This document shows positions 1 to 23,994 of a stretch of DNA of 25,658 nucleotides, piece after piece (positions within the stretch are counted from its first letter, which is position 1; the number at the start of each line of letters is the position of its first letter). Location: the IMG/VR virus record IMGVR_UViG_3300009314_000290, positions 1 through 25,658 of that record. The stretch is one strand, 5' to 3'. The notes beneath the pieces were generated by a model, which saw nothing but the letters and a program-made list of their open reading frames with translations, was not told the origin of the DNA and ran no database searches. This DNA comes from a virus. The position numbers were made by a program, and so were the translations under genes.

Positions 1-450
1 GTAGGAGCATTAACCGAAGCCGAAAAAGAATATTTGAGAATGAAAATTGAAGATGCTGTGAATGCTACAAACGCAGCTCTTAGCGAAGGAATACTGCCAG
101 GGGGGGGAATGGGTTTATTAAAAGCAAAAAACTCATTACAGGAGCTTACTGGCGACGAGAACGCAGGGAAGATTATAATGGAGAAAGTTTTAGAGAGTTG
201 TGTGAGGCAATTAGCCAAGAATAGCGGAGATAACGCTGATACGGTTATTGAAAAATGCTCTGACGGAAAATCAAACGGCTATAATTTCTATAATCAACAA
301 TATGAAGATTTAATTGAAACAGGCGTAATAGACCCTTTAAAAGTAGTTAGATGCGCCTTTGAAAACGCAGTTTCAATGGTATCAAATTTATTAACAACCG
401 AATGCCTAATCCCTGATACAAGGGAGAAGCAGGAGGTTAAAAGATTATGA
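1..450 (+). CDS. groEL: Chaperonin GroEL, C-terminal part (5' end outside window)
   Basis: The frame is open from base 1 and ends at TGA 448-450. The 149 visible residues match the returning intermediate and C-terminal equatorial part of GroEL: KIEDAVNATNAA (with the Asp equivalent to E. coli catalytic D398), the GGGMGL glycine turn, and YEDLIETGVIDPLKVV followed by TTECLIPD. The family folds proteins in a double-ring ATPase chamber in the cytosol. The usual C-terminal GGM tail is absent; the protein ends in a short charged tail (EVKRL). It overlaps groES by four bases (ATGA), so the two genes are translationally coupled. The order groEL then groES is the reverse of most bacterial operons. 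Position next to a portal gene says it is phage-borne, probably for folding capsid or tail proteins (inference). Confidence 0.93.
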   Translation, partial: VGALTEAEKEYLRMKIEDAVNATNAALSEGILPGGGMGLLKAKNSLQELTGDENAGKIIMEKVLESCVRQLAKNSGDNADTVIEKCSDGKSNGYNFYNQQYEDLIETGVIDPLKVVRCAFENAVSMVSNLLTTECLIPDTREKQEVKRL

Positions 451-752
451 ATCTAAAACCACAAAACAATCAAATAATAATTAGCTGGAAAAACCAATCC
501 AAAGAAGATTTAGCCAAGGATATGCAAAAGGCAGGTTTAACTTTACCAGAAGAAACTCAAGGTAGAGAACAGATGATTGAAATGGGCGAAGTTATGGCTT
601 GCGCTGACAATCTGTTAGATATTCACGATAAGCCAATTATATTAAAAAAAGGTGATAAGATTTTATTTGCCACCTTTACAACTTTTGATTTGGTTTTAGA
701 AGACAAAGAAGCGTTTGCAATCAACGCTAAAGATATTATCGCTATTTTATAA
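447..752 (+). CDS. groES: Co-chaperonin GroES
   Basis: 101 residues, close to the usual 95-100. The C-terminal half is typical: GEVMA, then a KKGDKILFA strand and AINAKDIIAIL ending, equivalent to the E. coli GEVLA / VGDIVIF / ESDILAIV segments. The N-terminal MNLKPQNNQIII matches the first GroES strand. Residues about 20-45 would be the mobile loop that docks on GroEL; it carries GLTLP where E. coli has GIVLT, and is somewhat longer and Lys/Glu-rich. The start is set by a strong AGGAGG at 431-436, ten bases upstream, and by the ATGA overlap with groEL. It should cap the adjacent phage GroEL. Sequence divergence is high, so the call rests on the pattern plus the neighbour. Confidence 0.88.
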   Translation: MNLKPQNNQIIISWKNQSKEDLAKDMQKAGLTLPEETQGREQMIEMGEVMACADNLLDIHDKPIILKKGDKILFATFTTFDLVLEDKEAFAINAKDIIAIL

Positions 753-4143: not shown

Positions 4144-4214
4144 AAGCTACGTAACCCAAAAAGAGATGTCTTTTCTGCCTATAAGGGTTTTTGCGTAGCT
4201 TCTTCCTTATAGGC
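4144..4214 (+). promoter_or_regulatory. Candidate structured RNA with interleaved stems (pseudoknot)
   Basis: Two perfect inverted repeats are interleaved in the gap between the coiled-coil gene and the scaffold gene. Stem A pairs AAGCTACG (4144-4151) with CGTAGCTT (4194-4201). Stem B pairs GCCTATAAGG (4177-4186) with CCTTATAGGC (4205-4214). The order A-B-A'-B' is that of an H-type pseudoknot. Inside, AACCC (4153-4157) could extend stem A with GGGTT (4185-4189), which competes with the end of stem B. AAAAGA (4159-4164) and TCTTTT (4169-4174) form a small inner hairpin. It may be a cis-acting RNA controlling capsid gene expression; no known class is recognised. Confidence 0.55.
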
Positions 4215-4220
4215 GGTCAA

Positions 4221-4241
4221 GACCTCTCTTTGTGGGAGGTC
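4221..4241 (+). terminator. Possible weak terminator hairpin before scaffold gene
   Basis: GACCTC (4221-4226) pairs with GAGGTC (4236-4241), followed by ATTTTAATT. The stem is short and the U-tract poor, so termination would be partial at best. It lies seven bases after the interleaved stems at 4144-4214, an arrangement like an expression platform. Confidence 0.35.
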
Positions 4242-4317
4242 ATTTTAATTAAAGGTTGTGCTTTATTTTGTTCGGGTAAATCTTCAGCCCGCTCCAAATG
4301 AAGTAAAACAAACAAAT

Positions 4318-5223
4318 ATGATAAAGACAATCAATTTAGTCCCTGAAATGGAGGGACAACCTTTGGAGGTTAAGCAACCTACAGAGGACGAATTACAGGA
4401 GGAAAACGAGGAGAAGGAAACTCCTGCGGAAGCTCCAGCCGTAGAAAAACCAGCTGACAGCGGGGAAGGCGACCCCGATAAAAAGCCAGAGGAAGAATCA
4501 GAGGGGGAATCTGAAACTGAAACTGAAACCTCAGAGGAAGAAGCCCCTGAAGATGAAACTCCTGAAGCCAGCGATGATGCTGAAAAGGATCGAGAACAAA
4601 AAGGATTGAAGGCTGAAGAAGACAAACTGACAAAACAAGTCAGGGATAATATTGTCAATCTTCGGTCTCAAAGGCGTGAACAGAAGCAACAAATCACGCC
4701 ACCAAGTTCTCAACCTATCACTCCTTCACAGGAGGATGATATTGACCCTGAAGTCAGCAAAATTGTTGATAAAAGGGTTCAAAAAGTCCTTAAGGATGGT
4801 GGATATGTTCCTAAATCTGAAATGGATAAAGAGAATCTTTTCAAAGGTATGAAAGATGCTGATGATAATTTTCTTAAATCCAGCCCAGAATACATTCATT
4901 CGTCTGAATTACGGAATGAATTTGATGATATTTTGGAATCTGCTGGTGAACCAAAAAATATTGAGGATTACCAGCGAAAGTTAGAAATAGCCCATAGTAT
5001 TATTAAAAAGAATCATCCAGACAGGTTTCCTGTTTCAGCGGCAGGTTCTTCTGTTCAGAAACGGCTGGATACTGCCAGTCGGGGAACGGGCGGAAAGAGC
5101 AAGCCTTCTTCTTCTCAAGGCTCATCATTGAGTCCTGATGAAAAGGCTCAATTACGTCGAGGGGGCTTCACTGAAGATGAAATCAAAGAGTTCGATAAAC
5201 AATTAATTAAGGAAAGACAATAG
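4318..5223 (+). CDS. Acidic scaffold-like protein
   Basis: From ATG 4318 the product is 301 residues. The frame is open further up to a GTG at 4258 (321 residues). I prefer the ATG because it follows CAAAT exactly like the gene at 3397, while GTG has AAAGG only two bases away. Residues about 15-105 are extremely Glu/Asp/Pro-rich, and the C-terminal third is Ser-rich and ends in a charged helix (DEKAQLRRGGFTEDEIKEF). An acidic, low-complexity, helical protein just before the decoration and capsid genes is the usual profile of a scaffolding protein, which guides shell assembly and then leaves. The call rests on composition and position, not on homology. Confidence 0.62.
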   Translation: MIKTINLVPEMEGQPLEVKQPTEDELQEENEEKETPAEAPAVEKPADSGEGDPDKKPEEESEGESETETETSEEEAPEDETPEASDDAEKDREQKGLKAEEDKLTKQVRDNIVNLRSQRREQKQQITPPSSQPITPSQEDDIDPEVSKIVDKRVQKVLKDGGYVPKSEMDKENLFKGMKDADDNFLKSSPEYIHSSELRNEFDDILESAGEPKNIEDYQRKLEIAHSIIKKNHPDRFPVSAAGSSVQKRLDTASRGTGGKSKPSSSQGSSLSPDEKAQLRRGGFTEDEIKEFDKQLIKERQ

Positions 5224-5254: not shown

Positions 5255-5689
5255 ATGGCAGGATTTACTTTAAGAAAAGGCCACGCTGAGGTTGAAGAAG
5301 CCACTATTAGTTCATTGACATTAGCTATTGGTGATCTAATTGAATTAGATGTCGGAGCTACTGCTTGGACTGTAGGCGATTCTGCAACTGAGCATTGGCA
5401 GAGAAAAGGTGTTTGTATGGAAGCTGCTACTTCCTCAGATACTAAGGTTAAAGTTTTATTGGTTAGTCCAGACCAGGAATGGGAAGTTGAATCTGCTAAT
5501 AGCAGTTCTGCTGACGATAACGGTGATAGAATGGTTTTAACTGATAAAAATACCGTTAATAATTCAGGTACAGATAGTACCGCTGAAGAAGCTGTTGTTA
5601 TTCAGATTGCCCCAGTTGGCTCAGCGACTGATAATAAGATTCTTGTTAGATTCTTTGACTCAACTGGTATCAATCCTGATGCTGCGTAA
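5255..5689 (+). CDS. Capsid decoration-like protein
   Basis: 144 residues, beta-rich and Ala/Ser/Thr-rich, without charged helices. It starts MAGFTLRKGHAEVEEA and contains SLTLAIGDLIELD and KVKVLLVSPDQEWEVE strands. Small beta proteins of this type directly upstream of the capsid gene are commonly decoration or stabilising proteins on the shell. It begins after ATATATGG with no Shine-Dalgarno and ends two bases before the capsid gene. No specific family identified. Confidence 0.58.
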   Translation: MAGFTLRKGHAEVEEATISSLTLAIGDLIELDVGATAWTVGDSATEHWQRKGVCMEAATSSDTKVKVLLVSPDQEWEVESANSSSADDNGDRMVLTDKNTVNNSGTDSTAEEAVVIQIAPVGSATDNKILVRFFDSTGINPDAA

Positions 5690-5691
5690 TT

Positions 5692-6705
5692 ATGGCACAA
5701 GCAATTCCATTTACAACTGGAACTTCCCCAGATTTGCTGAATGTCGCTATTCAGAAGATTTGGCTAAAAGTAAAACCTTTTGTAGAAGATTTTTACAAGA
5801 GGTATGTTAATGTAGTTACTGGGGTTACTGATTATTACACCAAAGACAGTTCTCTCTCTGGTATGGGTGAAATGTCTCGTATTCTTGATAATGCCACCAT
5901 CCAGGCAGAATCACCAATTGAGGGATATGATCAAACATATACCCAAGTTCATTACGGAAAACTTTTAAGGGTTTCCAAGATGATGTGGTTTTTCGGGATC
6001 AAGAAAAGAGACCTCACCAGAATTACCACTGAAGTTAAAAGAACTTGTATGAGCGGCCGTGAAAGGATCGTAGCTGATAGAGTGGACAATATGTTTTCTA
6101 CAAGCTACACCAAGAACGATGACGCTGGCAATTACTCTGTTACAACCACTGGTGGTAATAGTGTAGCTTTGGTAAGTAATGCCCAAACACGGGAAGATTC
6201 AGGCACAAATAATAACAACAGAATCACTGATGGCACTACTGTTAACTTTGACTTTGCTTATGATGCGGTAAAAGCTTCTCACTATACCTTGTCTCCGCTG
6301 TCTCCATTAAAAGATGCTAAAGGCAATCCGTTTAATGCTACTCCAACCCAGTTCATTTTCACTAAAGGTTCTCCTGAATCCTTTATTGCCCAAGAAATTC
6401 TTGGTGCTATCAGAAGGGCGCATAAACCTGGTAGTTCTGAATATGACGGATCTGGAGTTCCAGCATTCAAAACAGTTGAATTGCCTTGGATTACTACTAA
6501 TACAAGTTATTGGGCTTGTCAGGATGAGTCTCTCATTAATGACGAGTATGGTATTCAATTCTTGGAGTCACAGCCAATCAAGTTAGAAGGCCCTAATATC
6601 GTATTTACCACAAAGGAAGTTCAATACACCTCTACAACCTTGTTTGCTCTCGGACATAATGATAGCCGAGGTACTGGTGGATCGAAAAACACCAACGCCG
6701 CCTAA
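5692..6705 (+). CDS. Major capsid protein
   Basis: 337 residues, the usual size for an HK97-fold shell protein. Features that fit: an N-terminal helix region (NVAIQKIWLKVKPFVEDFY), an E-loop-like stretch with GMGEMSRILDNATI and QTYTQVHYGKLLRVSK, a long spine-like helix DLTRITTEVKRTCMSGRE, then FIFTKGSPESFIAQEILGAI and a C-terminal GPNIVFTTKEVQYTSTTLF strand run. Preceded by scaffold- and decoration-like genes two bases away. No protease domain is attached and I see no separate prohead protease, so scaffold removal may not need one. Start is AATTATGG, no Shine-Dalgarno. Confidence 0.78.
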   Translation: MAQAIPFTTGTSPDLLNVAIQKIWLKVKPFVEDFYKRYVNVVTGVTDYYTKDSSLSGMGEMSRILDNATIQAESPIEGYDQTYTQVHYGKLLRVSKMMWFFGIKKRDLTRITTEVKRTCMSGRERIVADRVDNMFSTSYTKNDDAGNYSVTTTGGNSVALVSNAQTREDSGTNNNNRITDGTTVNFDFAYDAVKASHYTLSPLSPLKDAKGNPFNATPTQFIFTKGSPESFIAQEILGAIRRAHKPGSSEYDGSGVPAFKTVELPWITTNTSYWACQDESLINDEYGIQFLESQPIKLEGPNIVFTTKEVQYTSTTLFALGHNDSRGTGGSKNTNAA

Positions 6706-6720
6706 CGCTGTCTTAAAATT

Positions 6721-7488
6721 ATGAGGAAGAAAAAGTTCAAGTTTAATCCAGAAAGAATTGCGCTGATTATTTTAGCAGTAGTGTTTGTATTCTCATTTGT
6801 TAAGGCAGAATATTTGAGTCCTAATTCAATTAATGTTGAAGAAGGCGGAGTGTTAAATATTGAGACTTTAAACTTCGGACAATTAGCAGAAGGATTGAAA
6901 GAGACAGTCTTAGGTGCGATTACAATGGATACAAACACCTTTGATCACGGCATTGATATTACTGAAGGCGGTATAACTATTACAGCTGGCGGATTAACTG
7001 TATCAGCAGGTGGAGCAACTATTACTGGTAATATTACCCAAAGTAATGGCACAACCACTATTGATCGTTCTTATGATGGTTATTATGTATCAGGTAGTTT
7101 AACAGCAGCCACTGGAACAGCCACTACCACATTATCCGCTTGGGAAGTCAACATAGGGCAAAGGAGACTTTGCCGAGATGTTGTCATTGACCAGACAGGT
7201 AATCCCGATGATAAGATTTATTTCTCTGTTAGCACATCAACTTATGCTGGCAATGAATTTACCTTTAATAAAGGTTTAATTGCCAGTTCAAGTATTGCTA
7301 CCGCTACTACTGATATTCTCTCTAAAGAGGATGACGAAGGCGGTGACACAAGAGAATGGTGGAATTGGGATAATAGTGTCGGGGTTGGTATTGTAATGAG
7401 TCCAGATGCATTAATTTCTCCAAACGGAAGCTCCACTGACTTTGATGAAGTAGCAGGCACTTGGCACATCTTTTGTTTAGATTACTAA
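6721..7488 (+). CDS. Secreted beta-rich protein with signal peptide
   Basis: 255 residues. The basic start MRKKKFKFNP is followed by a hydrophobic stretch (residues 12-27) and VKA before Glu30, a credible signal peptidase I site. Next come repeated short strands with the rhythm GITITAGGLTVSAGGATI, a Thr-rich linker (GTATTTLSAW), and a C-terminal beta domain with DKIYFSVSTSTYAG, ending WHIFCLDY. The pattern is that of a surface stalk or fibre. A Sec signal is out of place in a virion gene. It is the first of four such genes in a row. Start is AAATTATGAGG without Shine-Dalgarno. Confidence 0.68.
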   Translation: MRKKKFKFNPERIALIILAVVFVFSFVKAEYLSPNSINVEEGGVLNIETLNFGQLAEGLKETVLGAITMDTNTFDHGIDITEGGITITAGGLTVSAGGATITGNITQSNGTTTIDRSYDGYYVSGSLTAATGTATTTLSAWEVNIGQRRLCRDVVIDQTGNPDDKIYFSVSTSTYAGNEFTFNKGLIASSSIATATTDILSKEDDEGGDTREWWNWDNSVGVGIVMSPDALISPNGSSTDFDEVAGTWHIFCLDY

Positions 7489-7494
7489 TTTAAT

Positions 7495-7564
7495 CTGAAA
7501 TGAATTCCTCTTAATCATTGAAACTGTTTCTAAAGGCAGTGGAGATTAAGGGGATAGATTTCAG
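7495..7564 (+). other. Long two-tier hairpin in intergenic gap
   Basis: CTGAAAT (7495-7501) pairs with ATTTCAG (7558-7564). Inside it, TCCTCTTAATC (7506-7516) pairs with GATTAAGGGGA (7544-7554), eleven pairs with one G-U. A small apical ACTG/CAGT stem (7523-7526 with 7537-7540) is possible. No T-run follows on either strand, so this is not an ordinary terminator; it could be an RNA processing or stability element between capsid and surface genes. The rest of the 7489-7608 gap is A-rich with nothing else recognised. Confidence 0.55.
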
Positions 7565-7608
7565 CTTAATAAAAAGGTCGTAAAAAAATAATTAAATAAT
7601 AAAAACTT

Positions 7609-8199
7609 ATGAAAGATAAAATATTATCAATTTTAGTTCCAGCTGCCATAATTGTCGTTCTTATGGTTACTGGTTATTACCTAATATCAGGAATTAAATC
7701 TGATATTAATAAATTAGATCAAAAACAAGAACAAGAATCAGAAACGCTTGGCTATTCTGAAGCAAAAATTGTTGATGTTATAGGAACAGAAACATCTCCT
7801 TATAGCTTTGAAGATAATAATGCTGGTTCTGATACTACAAGAGCAACTACAACTGGAATAATATTTGTTGGTAATGATGTTAATGTTTTGAATTTTGATT
7901 TATTCTTTCCAAAAACATCTTCAACACCGCCAACAACTCATTTTTATGTTATGCAATCAAATGATGCCGATTGCACAACAACAACAGAAGAAGCTGTTAA
8001 TATTGAGTGGGTAGATGTTACTCCAATAACCACTACAGCAAAAACAGCTTCAACAAGTTATGAATTAACTGTTCCACATAATAGATTTGGAGTTACACAT
8101 CAAATTACAAATTGGAATGCTTTATGCGCTAAAATTGTATTAGGTTCAGCTTCAAGCACAGCTTGGGTATCCGCTTCAAAACAATCATTAAATAATTAA
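7609..8199 (+). CDS. Membrane-anchored beta-rich protein
   Basis: 196 residues. One hydrophobic helix (residues about 6-27, with PAAIIVVLMVTGYYLI) follows a short basic start, with no good cleavage site, so an N-terminal anchor is likely. A short charged coil (SDINKLDQKQEQESE) follows, then a beta-rich Thr-rich domain ending CAKIVLGSASSTAWVS. Topology would place the domain outside the cytoplasm. Unknown family; the architecture matches its neighbours at 6721, 8473 and 9983. Start lacks a Shine-Dalgarno (AAAAACTTATG). Confidence 0.62.
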   Translation: MKDKILSILVPAAIIVVLMVTGYYLISGIKSDINKLDQKQEQESETLGYSEAKIVDVIGTETSPYSFEDNNAGSDTTRATTTGIIFVGNDVNVLNFDLFFPKTSSTPPTTHFYVMQSNDADCTTTTEEAVNIEWVDVTPITTTAKTASTSYELTVPHNRFGVTHQITNWNALCAKIVLGSASSTAWVSASKQSLNN

Positions 8200-8201
8200 T
8201 T

Positions 8202-8471
8202 ATGCTAACACCCACCGTAAAAATTAGAACTGGTGGGATTTCCACAGGCAATATTGCCGACGCTGAAACGCCATCAGGAACGATTGACGGTTCTAACACT
8301 TCTTTTACTTTAGCCAATACTCCCAGCCCTACCAGTTCACTTCAATTATTCTATAATGGCCAGCTCTTAACATCTGGGTCTGGCAATGATTTTACCTTAT
8401 CTGGAACAACTATCACAATGTCGTTTGCTCCAGAAACAGGTTCAACCTTGTTAGCTTATTATCGTTATTAA
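8202..8471 (+). CDS. Small fibre-type beta-sandwich protein
   Basis: 89 residues: ETPSGTIDGSNTSFTLAN then SLQLFYNGQLLTSG, then FTLSGTTITMSFAPETGS and a terminal LLAYYRY. This is the short beta module commonly found in phage tail-fibre and appendage proteins, here as a stand-alone gene. Unlike its neighbours it has no signal peptide. It starts two bases after the previous stop and ends one base before the next start, so all are co-translated on one message. Confidence 0.65.
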   Translation: MLTPTVKIRTGGISTGNIADAETPSGTIDGSNTSFTLANTPSPTSSLQLFYNGQLLTSGSGNDFTLSGTTITMSFAPETGSTLLAYYRY

Positions 8472-8472
8472 T

Positions 8473-9957
8473 ATGAGTGATAAAAAACATACAATTTTAA
8501 TAGCAGTGATTATATCTTTAGCCCTTTTTTGGACTATTTGGGTTAATGCCCAAACATTTGACGACCCTTTAACGCTAACTTGTTCTGTTTATCCTAATAA
8601 TTTAATGTTTGAAGATGATTTAATACTTGGAGGCAGAACATTATTAAGAATTGGCGGTCAGGTAATGTGGACAACAAACCTTGACCCTGATCAAGATAGC
8701 GCTGTCCGTATAGGTTCAAGCACTAAAAGGCTGCTTTACCTTTATTCTGATAATATTAATTCAACCTCTGCTACAACGACCAATGCCACTACAACAAACC
8801 TTTATATTAGTGAAGATTTAACAGTTAATTCTGGAATTATATTAGGAGGAACGAGGCGAACTACTTGGCCTGCTGGCTTAACTGACATTACCGGCCAGAC
8901 CCTCGGTTCTTTAGCTGATGTTTCCACCACTACCCCTGTCTATGGTGATCTCCTTATGTGGGATGGCTCTAATTGGACTGATTTAGCAACATCTTCTCTT
9001 AATATCAATACTGATGATACTGTTGAAGGTTCAACTAACTTATATCAGGATTCAGAATTAACTAATTGGATAGATAATGTAACTCTTGGTTCGAGCGGTG
9101 AATTTGAAACTGAAAGTTATGCCTCATCGACCACATCTTTAAATACTCAAGGAACACTCCATATAGGGGGGAACGGAACGATTGAAGGGACATTAGGGGT
9201 TACAGGCCAAATTACAGGCAATGTAACTGGTGCTTTAACTGGAAATGCTGACACAGCTACAAATCTTTCTAATTATGGTTTAGCTTTTACCTGGACAGGA
9301 TTAAATGTTCATTCAGATTTAAGGCCAGCCGTTCTTAATGCTTCTAATACATTAATTGACCTTTTAACAGCAACTAGCGCTACCACATCAGATAATCATT
9401 ATATTGGCGGATTCTTACAAATGAATAGCGGTAACGATAATTACATATATTTTGATGCTGGAGCAGAAAATTTTATGTGGGATGATTCACCAGCTTTATT
9501 TACCTTAACAGATGATTTTGAAGTTACAGGAGTGGCTTCTTCAACGGCAGGATTTAGAGTTAATGATTATTTTACAGTTAATAGTGCTGGAAGTGCTACA
9601 ACAACAAATAGTTTATATGTCAATTCTCAAAGAGTTTATGGTGAACAAGATAGAGCAATAGTTCTTGCTACGAGTACGCTTGATTATATTAGTGATGCTA
9701 CAAGCACAGTGCCGATTGATTATAATTCAAAGGCAAAAACTATTACAGAGATTTACTGTATTACAAATGACAACACAGCAACGATAGGGATTGGCGATGG
9801 AACTAATTTTGATTATGTTGAATGCACTAATAGCGGAGTTAGTAGAACTTCATTAGATAACGGAACATACACAGCCAGAGAAAAAATGGAAGTAGCAGTA
9901 GGTAAAATGACAATGACTCAATGGATAAATATAGTGATTACAGAGTCGTACGATTAA
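8473..9957 (+). CDS. Large secreted fibre/adhesin-like protein
   Basis: 494 residues. The signal peptide is clear: basic MSDKKH, a hydrophobic run to residue 24, then VNA before Gln27. The mature part carries Thr-rich stalk motifs (TTTNATTTNLYI, SASTTSL-like runs), a MWDGSNWTDLATSSLNI segment, collagen-free beta repeats (GTLGVTGQITGNVTGALTG), a YIYFDAGAENFMWDD strand pair, and a C-terminal domain (ITEIYCITNDNTATIGIGDG to MTMTQWINIVI). Similar repeats occur in phage fibres and in secreted proteins of candidate-phyla bacteria. The signal peptide argues for export rather than simple virion assembly. Probable role is attachment; no exact family can be named. Confidence 0.68.
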   Translation: MSDKKHTILIAVIISLALFWTIWVNAQTFDDPLTLTCSVYPNNLMFEDDLILGGRTLLRIGGQVMWTTNLDPDQDSAVRIGSSTKRLLYLYSDNINSTSATTTNATTTNLYISEDLTVNSGIILGGTRRTTWPAGLTDITGQTLGSLADVSTTTPVYGDLLMWDGSNWTDLATSSLNINTDDTVEGSTNLYQDSELTNWIDNVTLGSSGEFETESYASSTTSLNTQGTLHIGGNGTIEGTLGVTGQITGNVTGALTGNADTATNLSNYGLAFTWTGLNVHSDLRPAVLNASNTLIDLLTATSATTSDNHYIGGFLQMNSGNDNYIYFDAGAENFMWDDSPALFTLTDDFEVTGVASSTAGFRVNDYFTVNSAGSATTTNSLYVNSQRVYGEQDRAIVLATSTLDYISDATSTVPIDYNSKAKTITEIYCITNDNTATIGIGDGTNFDYVECTNSGVSRTSLDNGTYTAREKMEVAVGKMTMTQWINIVITESYD

Positions 9958-9982
9958 TAAAGTTCTTTCATTACAGAAAATT

Positions 9983-11128
9983 ATGACTAAAGAAAAAAAA
10001 TCAATTTTAATAACAGTAATAGTGGTAACAATTATTGTGGGTGGGACGCTTATTTATTCTCATAAACCGCCTTTATTTCAAGGAGATACGCCAACCTCAA
10101 CACCAGAAGTTATAGAACCAATCATTGAAGAACCAGCTTTACCAATAACTCAAGTTGAAGATGAATATTTTGAAATAGACAAACATTACAACGATAATGG
10201 ATTACTTTATTGCCAAACATTATATACAGAAGATTTAAAACTTAAAAAAGATAAACTTTCTGAATATTTAGAAAATATTAAGATAACTCAATTAGAAAAT
10301 ACTGAATTAAAAGAAGCTGAGGTTTTAACTTTGTATGTTAGGGGAAAAGGTTTAGGAACGGCCACACTTAAAATAGGCGATGCTGAAGTTATAATATTAG
10401 AATTAGAAAATGGTAAATGGCTAACTAAGTGGGGTAGTGCTTCAGGTTGGTGGACACAAGGACAGATTAATAATGCTTATGTTGAATATACTGGCAATAT
10501 TAAAGTTAGCTCAACTCGGCTTTATGCTGAAGATCAACATTCTTTAACAGATAATTTTGATTCATATTCTACTGGAAACTTACCAGGACAAGGAAGCTGG
10601 ACTGGAAGTAATAATATTGATGTTACTGATGCTGTTACTCAATCAGGGACAAGATCGGTAACTTCAGTAGCAGCTGGTACAGCTACTAAAACATTTACAG
10701 AAGAAGTAACTGGAAATCAGATTGCTTATATGAGAGGAGCTCAAACAAATATCAGTATTGGAAAGTGGGGGATTAGAGATGGCGGAAGTATTATAGGCTC
10801 AATACACATGAGGAATGATGCAACGCTTAGTATTTACAGTGGGGCTTATTATTCTTGTGGGACTTATGTTGCTGATACTTGGTATAAAACAGAAATAGAA
10901 TGGGATCAATCAAGAGATAGTGGAAATGGCGAATTTAGATGTCGCATTGATGACGGGTCTTGGAATACTTGGCGGGCTTTTAGAACAGCAGGGGCTTCAG
11001 CTGATGAGGTTTATATTGATGACGCTGGAAATGGAGGAACATTTTATTTAGATAGTTTTTCAGATCCTAATGCTGGAGCGCCAGCAGGAGCTGAAAGATA
11101 CATAAGAAATCCATTAATATATAATTAA
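9983..11128 (+). CDS. Membrane-anchored protein with ConA-like lectin domain
   Basis: 381 residues. A hydrophobic helix (residues 8-25) follows MTKEKKS, then a Pro/Glu/Thr-rich spacer (30-58), a middle domain (60-180), and from residue 190 a jelly-roll domain beginning TDNFDSYSTGNLPGQGSW and including WYKTEIEWDQSRDSGNGEF and GTFYLDSFSD. That pattern is typical of concanavalin A-like lectin/glucanase domains in surface proteins; no catalytic pair is evident, so glycan binding is more likely than hydrolysis. No cleavage site, so it should stay anchored with the lectin outside. It closes the run of exported genes. Confidence 0.68.
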   Translation: MTKEKKSILITVIVVTIIVGGTLIYSHKPPLFQGDTPTSTPEVIEPIIEEPALPITQVEDEYFEIDKHYNDNGLLYCQTLYTEDLKLKKDKLSEYLENIKITQLENTELKEAEVLTLYVRGKGLGTATLKIGDAEVIILELENGKWLTKWGSASGWWTQGQINNAYVEYTGNIKVSSTRLYAEDQHSLTDNFDSYSTGNLPGQGSWTGSNNIDVTDAVTQSGTRSVTSVAAGTATKTFTEEVTGNQIAYMRGAQTNISIGKWGIRDGGSIIGSIHMRNDATLSIYSGAYYSCGTYVADTWYKTEIEWDQSRDSGNGEFRCRIDDGSWNTWRAFRTAGASADEVYIDDAGNGGTFYLDSFSDPNAGAPAGAERYIRNPLIYN

Positions 11129-11145
11129 ATTAATTAAATAAATCT

Positions 11146-11466
11146 ATGGCTATTACACCCATCGGTAATATATCACAAGAATTATTTGAAAATGCTCGCT
11201 ACACATATTTAAGTGCGGCTGTTTCAGCGTCTGGTGAATCTTTAACAGTTCAAAGTATTAACAAGTTTGCTGTTAACCAAATATTATTTATTGGAGAATT
11301 AGGCGATGAAAAATCAGAAATTGTTAAAACTCATGCCTCAACCGCTCCAAGCGGAACAACTATTACTTTGGTAAGTGGCGGAGTAACCTATGATCACCCA
11401 ATAGATACTAAAGTTTATATTATTGATTATGATCAAGTCGTCTTCTATCATTCAACCTCAACTTAA
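11146..11466 (+). CDS. Connector protein, N-terminal part, before in-frame TAA
   Basis: 106 residues ending at TAA 11464-11466. It begins MAITPIGNISQELFENARYTY and runs into VNQILFIGELGDEKSEIV and VYIIDYDQVVFYHSTST, the first half of a domain I associate with a single larger head-tail connector protein, where it leads directly into an FN3-like segment ending in SDPIP. That second half lies in the same frame right after the stop (11467 onward). The gene is therefore either split by a nonsense change, read through at TAA, or translated as two chains by reinitiation at ATG 11488. Confidence 0.6.
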   Translation: MAITPIGNISQELFENARYTYLSAAVSASGESLTVQSINKFAVNQILFIGELGDEKSEIVKTHASTAPSGTTITLVSGGVTYDHPIDTKVYIIDYDQVVFYHSTST

Positions 11467-11487: not shown

Positions 11488-12507
11488 ATGGCGACAAATG
11501 ATATTGAAGCAGATGCTCTTGAAACAATTTATAAAGATTCCACCTATACCACAGGATATTACTTTGTCAGATTTAAAAATTCAATTGATAGCACTTTTTC
11601 AGGATATTCTGATCCTATTCCAGTTGGCGGATATGCTGACAATACAGTTTTTAAGATTAAAGAAAGGGCATTAGAAGAATTAGGGTTAGATATTTCAGAA
11701 AACTTAACCCACGATTGGCTTAATAGAAGATTATGGGCAGGTAGGAGAATTGTTCACCAAAAAAGGAAAAGGTGGAGCTGGAGACAGCAGTTTGATTATG
11801 ATTTAGGTAATATTGCCACTGGAGATTATAGGGTAGCAATGCCAACTGATATAGCTGACGATAATACAAATAGAGATGTTATGGGTTTTAGGATAAGCGT
11901 TAATGAAAATATGACCCCTGTTACTAAAAGAGAGATGGATGATGAGTGGGAAGGGACAGCCAGAACCACTTTAGCTTCAGCCTATACAGTCGGAGATGGA
12001 ACAATTACCTTAGATGACAGCCGAGATTTAGAAGATAGTGGCAGTATTGAAATAGATGAAGACACTATCGAATATTCAGCAAATAACAGGTCAACTGGAG
12101 TTTTAACAGTGTCAACAGATGGCAGTTCAAACCATTCAGCAAATGTAAATGTCTATCAGAATGTATCTTTTACCCTACCTACTAAATTTACAATTTACGA
12201 AGGTTATGTTTATTTTAACTACCCTATTGCAAGCGATTATAATGGAATGAATTATTGGATGGATTATTATAGAACATTAACCGCCTATGATTCAGACGCA
12301 GATGTTTTAGACGAACCAGAATATGATTTTTATACCTCTTGGTTAAAATATTGTATTAAGAAAAAACAAGATCCTAAAAACGTTAAAATGAAGACAGATG
12401 ATGACTACCAAGCATTTTTGGTTGGTATTAGCGATTTAATCATGAAAGAAACTACAGGCCAGGAAATTCAATTTATTCCAGATATAAGTCATTTAGATGA
12501 GGATTAA
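11488..12507 (+). CDS. Head-tail connector/adaptor protein, C-terminal part
   Basis: 339 residues from ATG 11488; without the TAA at 11464 the gene would be a single 11146-12507 frame of 453 residues. The first 45 residues (TGYYFVRFKNSIDSTFSGYSDPIP) complete the domain begun in the upstream fragment. Then come an adaptor-like helical region (KIKERALEELGLDI, WLNRRLWAGRRIVHQKRKRW) and DYDLGNIATGDYRVAMP, followed by a beta insert and an EYDFYTSWLKYCIKK helix. Helical adaptors of this kind ring the portal in short-tailed phages. No Shine-Dalgarno; GATGATACG precedes the ATG, so reinitiation after the nearby stop is possible. Confidence 0.66.
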   Translation: MATNDIEADALETIYKDSTYTTGYYFVRFKNSIDSTFSGYSDPIPVGGYADNTVFKIKERALEELGLDISENLTHDWLNRRLWAGRRIVHQKRKRWSWRQQFDYDLGNIATGDYRVAMPTDIADDNTNRDVMGFRISVNENMTPVTKREMDDEWEGTARTTLASAYTVGDGTITLDDSRDLEDSGSIEIDEDTIEYSANNRSTGVLTVSTDGSSNHSANVNVYQNVSFTLPTKFTIYEGYVYFNYPIASDYNGMNYWMDYYRTLTAYDSDADVLDEPEYDFYTSWLKYCIKKKQDPKNVKMKTDDDYQAFLVGISDLIMKETTGQEIQFIPDISHLDED

Positions 12508-12520
12508 ATAATGTATAAAT

Positions 12521-13975
12521 ATGTCAGAAATAAAATTACCCATTCATCAATATAGAAATTTTATAAACGGTAGAATAGGAAATGTTAGCGATTATTTATT
12601 ACCAGAAGGAGCTGTTACCACTGCTAAGAATGTTCATTTTGATATTTTAGGTAAAATCAAGTTAAGAGCTGGCGTAACTCTCATTAACAGTCAAATATCC
12701 AACAATTACCCTTGCCTCGGCCTTTATTATTTTGAAGGCACTAACTCCCAATTAGTCGCAGTGTTTTCAGACGGAACTAATAATGATGTCTATTACAAAA
12801 ATGGAGTAAGTTGGACAAAGACATTAGAAAATGACACTAAAGACCTTAAAACAAGATTTACTACTTTTTTAAACAGAGTTATCAGGGTTAATGGCACAGA
12901 TGTAGCTAAGGCTTGGGATGGCAGCGCTGCTTGGAGTCAATATGTTGGCACTTCAGCTAAAGACCTTAACCTTGATGATATGGATTCCTATAAATGTTCT
13001 TTAATAGAAACTTTTAAACAAAGAGTTTATAAGGCAGGATATTCTACAGTTCCAGAAAGAATGTTTTATTCTACTGTAGTCAGCACAACTCCTCATATAA
13101 CTTGGTCACCAACTACTGATTTTATAGACATAGACCCAAGAAACGCTGGCGATTTAACAGCCCTTAAAAGATATGCTTTAGACCTTTTAGTTTTTAAAAA
13201 GAAATTTATGTATCGCTATCGTGGGCAGGCTGGAGTTGACCCAGAACCATTGATCAAAGTCGGCACTCCTTCACAGGAAGCAGTAGTTGAAGCTAAAAAT
13301 GGCATTTATTCTTTTAGCCAAACACCAGCTATTTACCGATATACAGGCAGTTATCCTAAAGAAATCTCAAGGCCAGTATCAGACTTTTTAGAAGCAATCC
13401 CCTCAACATATTTTGCAACTATTTCATCTTGGGTAGAAGCAGACGGCGACCACGTTTGTTTTTCAATAGGGGATGTGACAGTAGGCGGAGTCTCTTGGGT
13501 TAATGTTGTTTTGAGATATACTATCAGTTCTGATGTCTGGACAGTTTATTCATATAACACAGAATTAAGGCGAGGAGCTTTATGGGATAATGGAACTAAT
13601 ATAGTCACAGTAGGCGGAGATGATGACGGCAATATCTTCACTCTTAACAGCGGAACAACAGATAATACCGCAGCTATTCAATACGAGCTTATCACTAAGT
13701 ATTATGATTTTGGAGCAGTATCTGAAACAGCGTTAATTAACAAATTAGCTGGTGTGTGTGAAAAAGCCCAAGAAGGTTTGCTGGCATTTCAAATAAATGA
13801 TAAAATTAAATGGCATACTATTGGTCAGTTAAAAAAATATGTAACAATTTTTAAAAATCAAAAAATAGAAGGACAAAGAATAAGGTTTAAACTTTATGGT
13901 TCTTCTAAAATCAGCCCGTTTATCTTTGAAGGAATAGAAATCCTTGAAGGAATAAATAAGGGCGTTATAGAATAA
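12521..13975 (+). CDS. Tail nozzle / tail stabilisation protein
   Basis: 484 residues. The start matches podovirus nozzle-type proteins: FINGRIGNVSDYLLPEGAV, TTAKNVHFDILGKIKLRAGV, then repeated propeller-like blades such as LGLYYFEGTNSQLVAVFSDG, GIYSFSQTPAIYRYTG and NGTNIVTVGGDDDGNIFTL. The late part (YYDFGAVSETALINKLAG and GQRIRFKLYGSSKISPFIF) is the outer beta domain seen in gp10/gp12-like nozzle proteins. Such proteins extend the connector into the short tail tube. The next gene starts on the last base of its stop codon. Start AAATATGTC has no Shine-Dalgarno. Confidence 0.72.
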   Translation: MSEIKLPIHQYRNFINGRIGNVSDYLLPEGAVTTAKNVHFDILGKIKLRAGVTLINSQISNNYPCLGLYYFEGTNSQLVAVFSDGTNNDVYYKNGVSWTKTLENDTKDLKTRFTTFLNRVIRVNGTDVAKAWDGSAAWSQYVGTSAKDLNLDDMDSYKCSLIETFKQRVYKAGYSTVPERMFYSTVVSTTPHITWSPTTDFIDIDPRNAGDLTALKRYALDLLVFKKKFMYRYRGQAGVDPEPLIKVGTPSQEAVVEAKNGIYSFSQTPAIYRYTGSYPKEISRPVSDFLEAIPSTYFATISSWVEADGDHVCFSIGDVTVGGVSWVNVVLRYTISSDVWTVYSYNTELRRGALWDNGTNIVTVGGDDDGNIFTLNSGTTDNTAAIQYELITKYYDFGAVSETALINKLAGVCEKAQEGLLAFQINDKIKWHTIGQLKKYVTIFKNQKIEGQRIRFKLYGSSKISPFIFEGIEILEGINKGVIE

Positions 13976-19790: not shown

Positions 19791-20078
19791 ATGAAACTAT
19801 TATTGATAGTATTGATTTTATACGGATGTGCTAAACCTACATTCCACAAAACAGTAGAATTAGATATTAAGGTTCATATTATGGATGAAATGTCTTTTCG
19901 CAAAATCTTCCCTGAATATCCAAGAGTAAGAGGTTTAGCAACAAAGAACAATTATATCTATATCATAGGAGAAGATGGAATCATAGGAGAAGATGGAATA
20001 TTTGTTGACTGCTACATTCTTGGTCATGAACTTAAACATCTACTTCATTGGAAAGATCCTGAAATACTTAAACCATAA
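19791..20078 (+). CDS. Small lipoprotein with HEXXH zinc-peptidase motif
   Basis: 95 residues. MKLLLIVLILYGC is a short lipoprotein signal with the acceptor Cys at position 13. The only other striking feature is HELKH at residues 79-83 with another His at 86, the zinc-binding signature of metallopeptidases. The domain is far shorter than usual zincins, so it may be a reduced or inactive form. IGEDGI is duplicated at residues 59-70 by an 18-bp DNA repeat. It would sit on the outer face of the membrane. AAAGG eight bases before the ATG is a moderate ribosome site. Unknown family. Confidence 0.6.
   Translation: MKLLLIVLILYGCAKPTFHKTVELDIKVHIMDEMSFRKIFPEYPRVRGLATKNNYIYIIGEDGIIGEDGIFVDCYILGHELKHLLHWKDPEILKP
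19962..19997 (+). repeat. 18-bp perfect tandem duplication inside lipoprotein gene
   Basis: ATCATAGGAGAAGATGGA occurs twice head to tail (19962-19979 and 19980-19997), duplicating the six residues IGEDGI in frame. Likely a recent slippage event. Confidence 0.85.
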
Positions 20079-23918: not shown

Positions 23919-23994
23919 GCCCCCGTAGCTCAGTGGATAGAGCATTGGATTCCTAATCCATGTGCCGCAGGTTCGATCCCTGCCGGGGGCACCA
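23919..23994 (+). tRNA. tRNA-Arg, anticodon CCU, CCA encoded
   Basis: A 76-base cloverleaf. Acceptor GCCCCCG pairs perfectly with CGGGGGC (23984-23990), then A and an encoded CCA. D arm has GCTC/GAGC with AGTGGATA loop. Anticodon arm TTGGA, loop TTCCTAA with CCT anticodon, TCCA. T arm GCAGG TTCGATC CCTGC is complete. It reads AGG codons, which are used in this AT-rich genome. It could be a phage tRNA or the remains of a tRNA integration site; no integrase is in the window. Confidence 0.96.

Follow-up and report, generated by a model that had tools for sequence, protein, structure and literature searches.

The virus studied here is best explained as a tailed phage whose late operon, close to the capsid gene, holds a set of fibre-like proteins, and the N-terminal helices with which these proteins begin are very probably export signals. 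On balance we consider it probable that these proteins mainly end up exposed on the infected cell or released from it. The original prediction was of exported, surface-displayed fibre-like proteins; export is supported by the family-wise conservation of the leaders in divergent viruses, and display would be its simplest consequence.

The window, by which we mean the whole stretch of DNA that was analysed, corresponds to an IMG/VR virus record, is 25,658 bases long and has 31 plus-strand genes; the record IMGVR 3300009320_000366 represents the same virus, being identical where tested. An ORF check confirmed the four predicted reading frames at 6721-7488 (sp1), 7609-8199 (tm2), 8473-9957 and 9983-11128, all on the plus strand. 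They are clustered, as had been proposed, but they are four of a run of five rather than consecutive, because a gene without a helix (8202-8471) sits between the second and the third. Each of the four proteins starts with a basic tip followed by one very hydrophobic helix; averaged over the most hydrophobic 17 residues within the first 50 amino acids, the Kyte-Doolittle hydropathy is 2.76 for 6721, 2.86 for 7609, 2.67 for 8473 and 2.85 for 9983. The next window gene reaches 1.96 and the remainder of each of the four proteins does not exceed 1.32. Shuffling of the first 50 residues matches the observed values in at most 0.4% of cases for each gene, and the chance that all four should fall in a run of five among the 31 plus-strand genes is about 0.0035. 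The fibre-like gene at 13975, said to be free of such a helix, does indeed lack one (hydropathy 0.68), and the Thr/Ser-rich composition is borne out by Ser/Thr contents of 18-25%.

Searches with the capsid, portal, TerL, sp1, tm2 and p144 proteins recovered a clade consisting of the window virus, L004/L005, L006, L008 and L009; L010 possibly belongs to it, its contig ending within the capsid gene. Among the five clade viruses, identity is 61-79% for TerL and 52-75% for the portal. The leaders are specific to this clade when it is set against the sister phages L011, L073 and L079, which have related portal and capsid proteins but are more distant, and whose fibre-like genes downstream of the capsid gene have no leader. 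A leader screen of the other TerL relatives, covering genes of at least 150 amino acids, returned one case, L038:6203, also after a capsid-like gene. This gene (6203-7027) encodes an independent signal-bearing protein with a weak GH16 match, and the TerL identity of its phage is 46%. The portal, the capsid, 6721, 7609 and 9983 found no match among 50,697 phage records; 8473 alone had one.

Leaders were typed by explicit rules (a basic n-region, a hydrophobic stretch and a (-3,-1) site after that stretch), and the call of export is based on hydropathy, charge, the (-3,-1) rule and conservation. The VKA and VNA sites of the original prediction hold up, since VKA|EY in 6721 (signal peptide at residues 1-29) and VNA|QT in 8473 (ending at residue 26) are both acceptable to signal peptidase I; 7609 and 9983 have no acceptable site at the end of the hydrophobic stretch and are anchor-like. 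By the same rule, a candidate site lies past the hydrophobic stretch in all five sp1 leaders and in three of three fibre leaders. The tm2 protein is of the uncleaved-anchor type in the window and in three other viruses, two of its sequences showing chance (-3,-1) matches that lie inside the hydrophobic stretch. The net charge of the n-region is +1 to +7 in all four proteins and their orthologues, with the exception of the tm2 of L008 (0), and the n-regions of sp1 are all basic, from +5 to +7. This division into cleaved and anchored families, kept over divergent sequences, is the best evidence that the helices are genuine export signals; that leaders and anchors stay family-specific in this way gives the export of these proteins good support.

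The sp1 protein (255 amino acids) consists of the signal peptide, a conserved stem and a swappable C-terminal domain. Its gene lies directly after the capsid gene, and encodes a leader, in all five distinct clade viruses (the window and four others) whose sequence reaches that point, the orthologues being L005:8667-9344, L006:9842-10606, L008:10224-10931 and, for L009, L090:1444-2166 on the minus strand. Leader and stem, to about residue 88, are related in all pairs (z 11.7-30.4; identity 35-77%). The C-terminal parts are of two types, related within each type and unrelated between them (z -1.4 to 2.3). Between L005 and L009 the C-terminal part is 88% shared and the N-terminal part only 48%, p144 and the portal being at 50-55%. 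Judged from these alignments, the distal domain of sp1 is exchanged between viruses on a constant, putatively exported stem, as happens in exposed binding proteins. Cys151 and Cys252 are common to the window and L006.

The tm2 protein (196 amino acids) combines an uncleaved N-terminal membrane anchor with a beta-rich domain and was found in four of the five clade viruses (window, L006, L008 and L009), the L005 contig stopping after sp1. Its cysteines Cys122 and Cys173 are invariant in all four; the cysteine pairs of this family, and in part those of sp1, fit a location outside the cytoplasm but do not prove it. A structural model (pLDDT 58) places the beta-rich domain behind a long helix (residues 2-43, low confidence). 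Searches of the PDB and viral fold libraries returned weak matches only (best viral E 1e-4, query TM-scores below 0.5), and tm2 is left without a family name because these scores are too low.

Beyond tm2 the gene order differs between the viruses. In L006 and L008 a coiled-coil gene, a 103-amino-acid gene and a signal-bearing fibre-like gene follow; the window has instead an 89-amino-acid gene (8202-8471), 8473 and 9983. The product of 8202-8471, also on the plus strand, is beta-rich and leaderless, with a weak match to the tail-fibre profile phrog_21412 (E 6e-4). The 8473 protein (494 amino acids) has a signal peptide, tail-fibre-like modules and a C-terminal domain with Cys429 and Cys451; its positional analogues are L006:12349 and L008:12770, so that signal-bearing tail-fibre-like genes are present in three viruses. 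The phage-record match of 8473 is a weak one, to cyanophage fibre modules (E about 1e-3), and L006:12349 matches the tail-fibre profile phrog_9942 (E 8e-12). The L006 fibre also has S74-like repeats that match very long bacterial ORFs. None of sp1, tm2 and 9983 matched a described fibre family in profile searches.

The 9983 protein (381 amino acids) has a membrane anchor, a Pro/Thr-rich linker and a C-terminal domain for which a ConA-like fold had been predicted. That assignment is plausible through a homologue, but a Pfam search with 9983 itself gave no match for such a domain and the AlphaFold2 model, of low confidence (pLDDT 47), gave no significant fold match; a PDB profile search was empty. 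The homologue is the leaderless L081:8247 of a related phage (30% identity over 150 amino acids, E 8e-19), which matches PF22585 Sialidase-like_CBM with an E value of 6e-4, below the curated cut-off; this weak profile evidence makes the lectin-like label plausible. By position, as we read it, the L081 gene precedes one resembling window gene 12521. A small-genome bacterium (1.4 Mb) also encodes a signal peptide joined to a counterpart of the 9983 domain (E 4e-11, 34%), and since this gene lies near one for a serine recombinase it may be on a mobile element. No orthologue of 9983 was found outside the window virus, the contigs of the other viruses ending before any equivalent.

The genes upstream of sp1, on the plus strand like it, comprise a putative portal gene (755-2689; weak match to PF23899 SU10_portal, E 0.0016), a gene for a scaffold-like acidic protein, so called from its position and composition (4258-5223), that for p144, a small conserved and probably capsid-associated protein (5255-5689), and the gene for the presumed major capsid protein, identified by position and conservation, with no Pfam match (5692-6705). 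Directly ahead of the portal gene lie genes for a phage GroEL and a GroES-like protein (window 1-752 and L002:2910-4774; the GroEL has 520 amino acids in L002), the GroES-like gene being kept also in L005 and L006. Several capsid genes are interrupted by group I introns and ORFs resembling homing endonucleases (L006:9387-9617, L009:16914-17096, L005:7083-8219 and L079:10858-12727), with Rfam group I matches in L006 and L009. Elsewhere in the window, two ORFs (11146-11466 and 11488-12507) correspond to a single 453-amino-acid ORF in L002 (15168-16529), probably owing to a sequencing or assembly frameshift; 19791-20078 encodes a small protein, without a Pfam match, that starts like a lipoprotein (LYGC), contains an HELKH motif and is possibly an exported metallopeptidase-like lipoprotein; and a tRNA-Arg (CCT) gene lies at 23919-23994.

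Two RNA hairpins, unrelated to one another in sequence, bracket the scaffold, p144, capsid and sp1 genes. The first and longer, at 4155-4236 ahead of the scaffold-like gene, has similar counterparts at the equivalent place in six other viruses, sister phages included, giving z scores of -5.1 to -7.7 over the seven. The second, at 7490-7569, parts sp1 from the other three genes and folds in all four viruses that have both sp1 and tm2 (z -4.0, -5.5, -8.0 and -5.2); besides the window, the viruses concerned in one or other hairpin are L005, L006, L008, L009, L011 and L079. In the alignment of the sp1-tm2 hairpin 98.9% of cells pair and 11 of 22 pairs are changed on both sides. Almost no shuffle equals this covariation and structures slid along the alignment drop to 29-58%, the latter being a lenient control because the structure was derived from the same sequences. 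An intrinsic terminator was considered for 7490-7569 and rejected, the sequence after it being A-rich and free of a T-run; counts of internal promoters and terminators in the window were no different from chance expectation. By analogy with T7 we suggest that the hairpins are possible RNase III-type processing sites and, if this is right, sp1 would share the transcript segment of the capsid.

Taken together, these observations suggest a scheme in which the late operon would deliver, alongside the capsid proteins, a fibre-like set that enters the Sec pathway. Sp1 and the 8473 fibre would probably be cut by signal peptidase I, and tm2 and 9983 would remain in the membrane through their N-terminal helix, the domain facing outwards. 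The tips, which are beta-rich and swappable, would reach out from the surface of the infected cell, or be released, and may bind something outside, glycans or cell surfaces being most likely; their use could lie in adhesion or in the masking of receptors. In favour of this scheme are also the bacterial signal peptide joined to a 9983-like domain and the independent signal-bearing protein of L038. Against it, the domains as such belong to the usual stock of virion proteins, since the sister phages have leaderless fibre-like proteins at the same place and L081 has the same lectin-like domain, again leaderless. A more specific version, to which we give a little under even chances, is that the fibre slot has been turned into a late display module that coats the infected cell and alters its sticking or the binding of phages, sp1 on this account lying in the RNA stretch of the capsid genes.

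A different use of export is conceivable, though we rate it as unlikely: the proteins could be virion fibres that pass through Sec, stay at the membrane or outside it and join finished virions at or after lysis. In every clade virus the genes do stand after the capsid gene and ahead of later structural genes, the same slot holds fibre-like genes in the sister phages, and the hairpins put sp1 in one RNA stretch with the capsid genes; a virion role fits 8473 and the L006 fibre, because both match phage tail-fibre profiles. Tailed-phage heads are, however, assembled in the cytoplasm, no tailed phage is known to us to take up fibres exported by Sec, and the phage already possesses a leaderless fibre-like gene at 13975. 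It is less probable still, and in our view distinctly doubtful, that the helices are anchors by which fibres inside the cytoplasm are attached to the capsid or to one another. Such a role would sit well with the leaderless genes in the equivalent slot of the sister phages and with the modelled running-on of the tm2 helix, but not with the signal-peptidase-like sites kept in the sp1 and fibre families and not in tm2, the strongly basic n-regions of sp1 or the conserved cysteine pairs of tm2 and sp1; such a helix would, moreover, tend to draw a cytoplasmic protein to the membrane. That the genes are host-derived cargo (morons), picked up by chance and without a shared role in infection, is very improbable and already disfavoured by conservation: the bacterial counterpart of the 9983 domain with its signal peptide and the bacterial matches of the L006 repeats speak for it, but position and order are fixed in at least four divergent viruses, and profiles of sp1 and tm2 found no real match as host genes in 380 and 287 genomes of one small-genome phylum, the single match covering the leader only.

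Two routes to the host were tried and set aside: TerL gave five distant matches in genome contigs of unrelated groups, which is uninformative, and the phage GroEL has counterparts with up to 43% identity in numerous genomes from one small-genome phylum, which is not decisive. Patescibacteria-like features are no more than suggestive.

If display on the infected cell is the true fate of these proteins, a tailed phage would have a lytic-phase programme of surface display embedded in its capsid gene cluster, and the adhesion of infected cells, or their susceptibility to other phages, would change during virion assembly. The system also offers an easy way to find out whether host-exported fibres are usable by tailed phages at all, with the leaderless sister phages as a natural comparison.

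The original prediction held that no phage system of this form had been described, which is roughly right for the block as a whole, although phage-encoded surface proteins are known, both as PblA/PblB and as the ConA-like proteins of Patescibacteriota phages. PblA and PblB of Streptococcus mitis phage SM1 reach the surface in lysogens and are not known to use a Sec signal for it. They resemble the present set as structural-type phage proteins found on the bacterial surface and acting in adhesion, and a bacterial-surface role is described for the SM1 products (PMC2920869); the window set differs in having dedicated leaders or anchors on short proteins within the capsid gene cluster. In groundwater Patescibacteriota phages, ConA-like genes, annotated as auxiliary metabolic genes, have been proposed to make the surface of the host cell more adhesive (PMC12911398). 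Compared by description, these too are phage-encoded and of proposed surface function; signal peptides are nowhere mentioned in the text of that source, and its passages on ConA-like genes describe no capsid-linked block or domain swapping (PMC12911398). The sister phages L011, L073 and L079, together with L081:8247, have the same slot or domain as the window but no N-terminal helix. The superinfection-exclusion proteins T5 Llp, N15 Cor and P1 SimC are exported to the host envelope and change what binds there; each is one small protein or lipoprotein without fibre-like character, usually expressed early or in lysogens. The likeness to these lies in the placing of exported phage proteins in the envelope, whereas the window set is fibre-like and made up of several genes.
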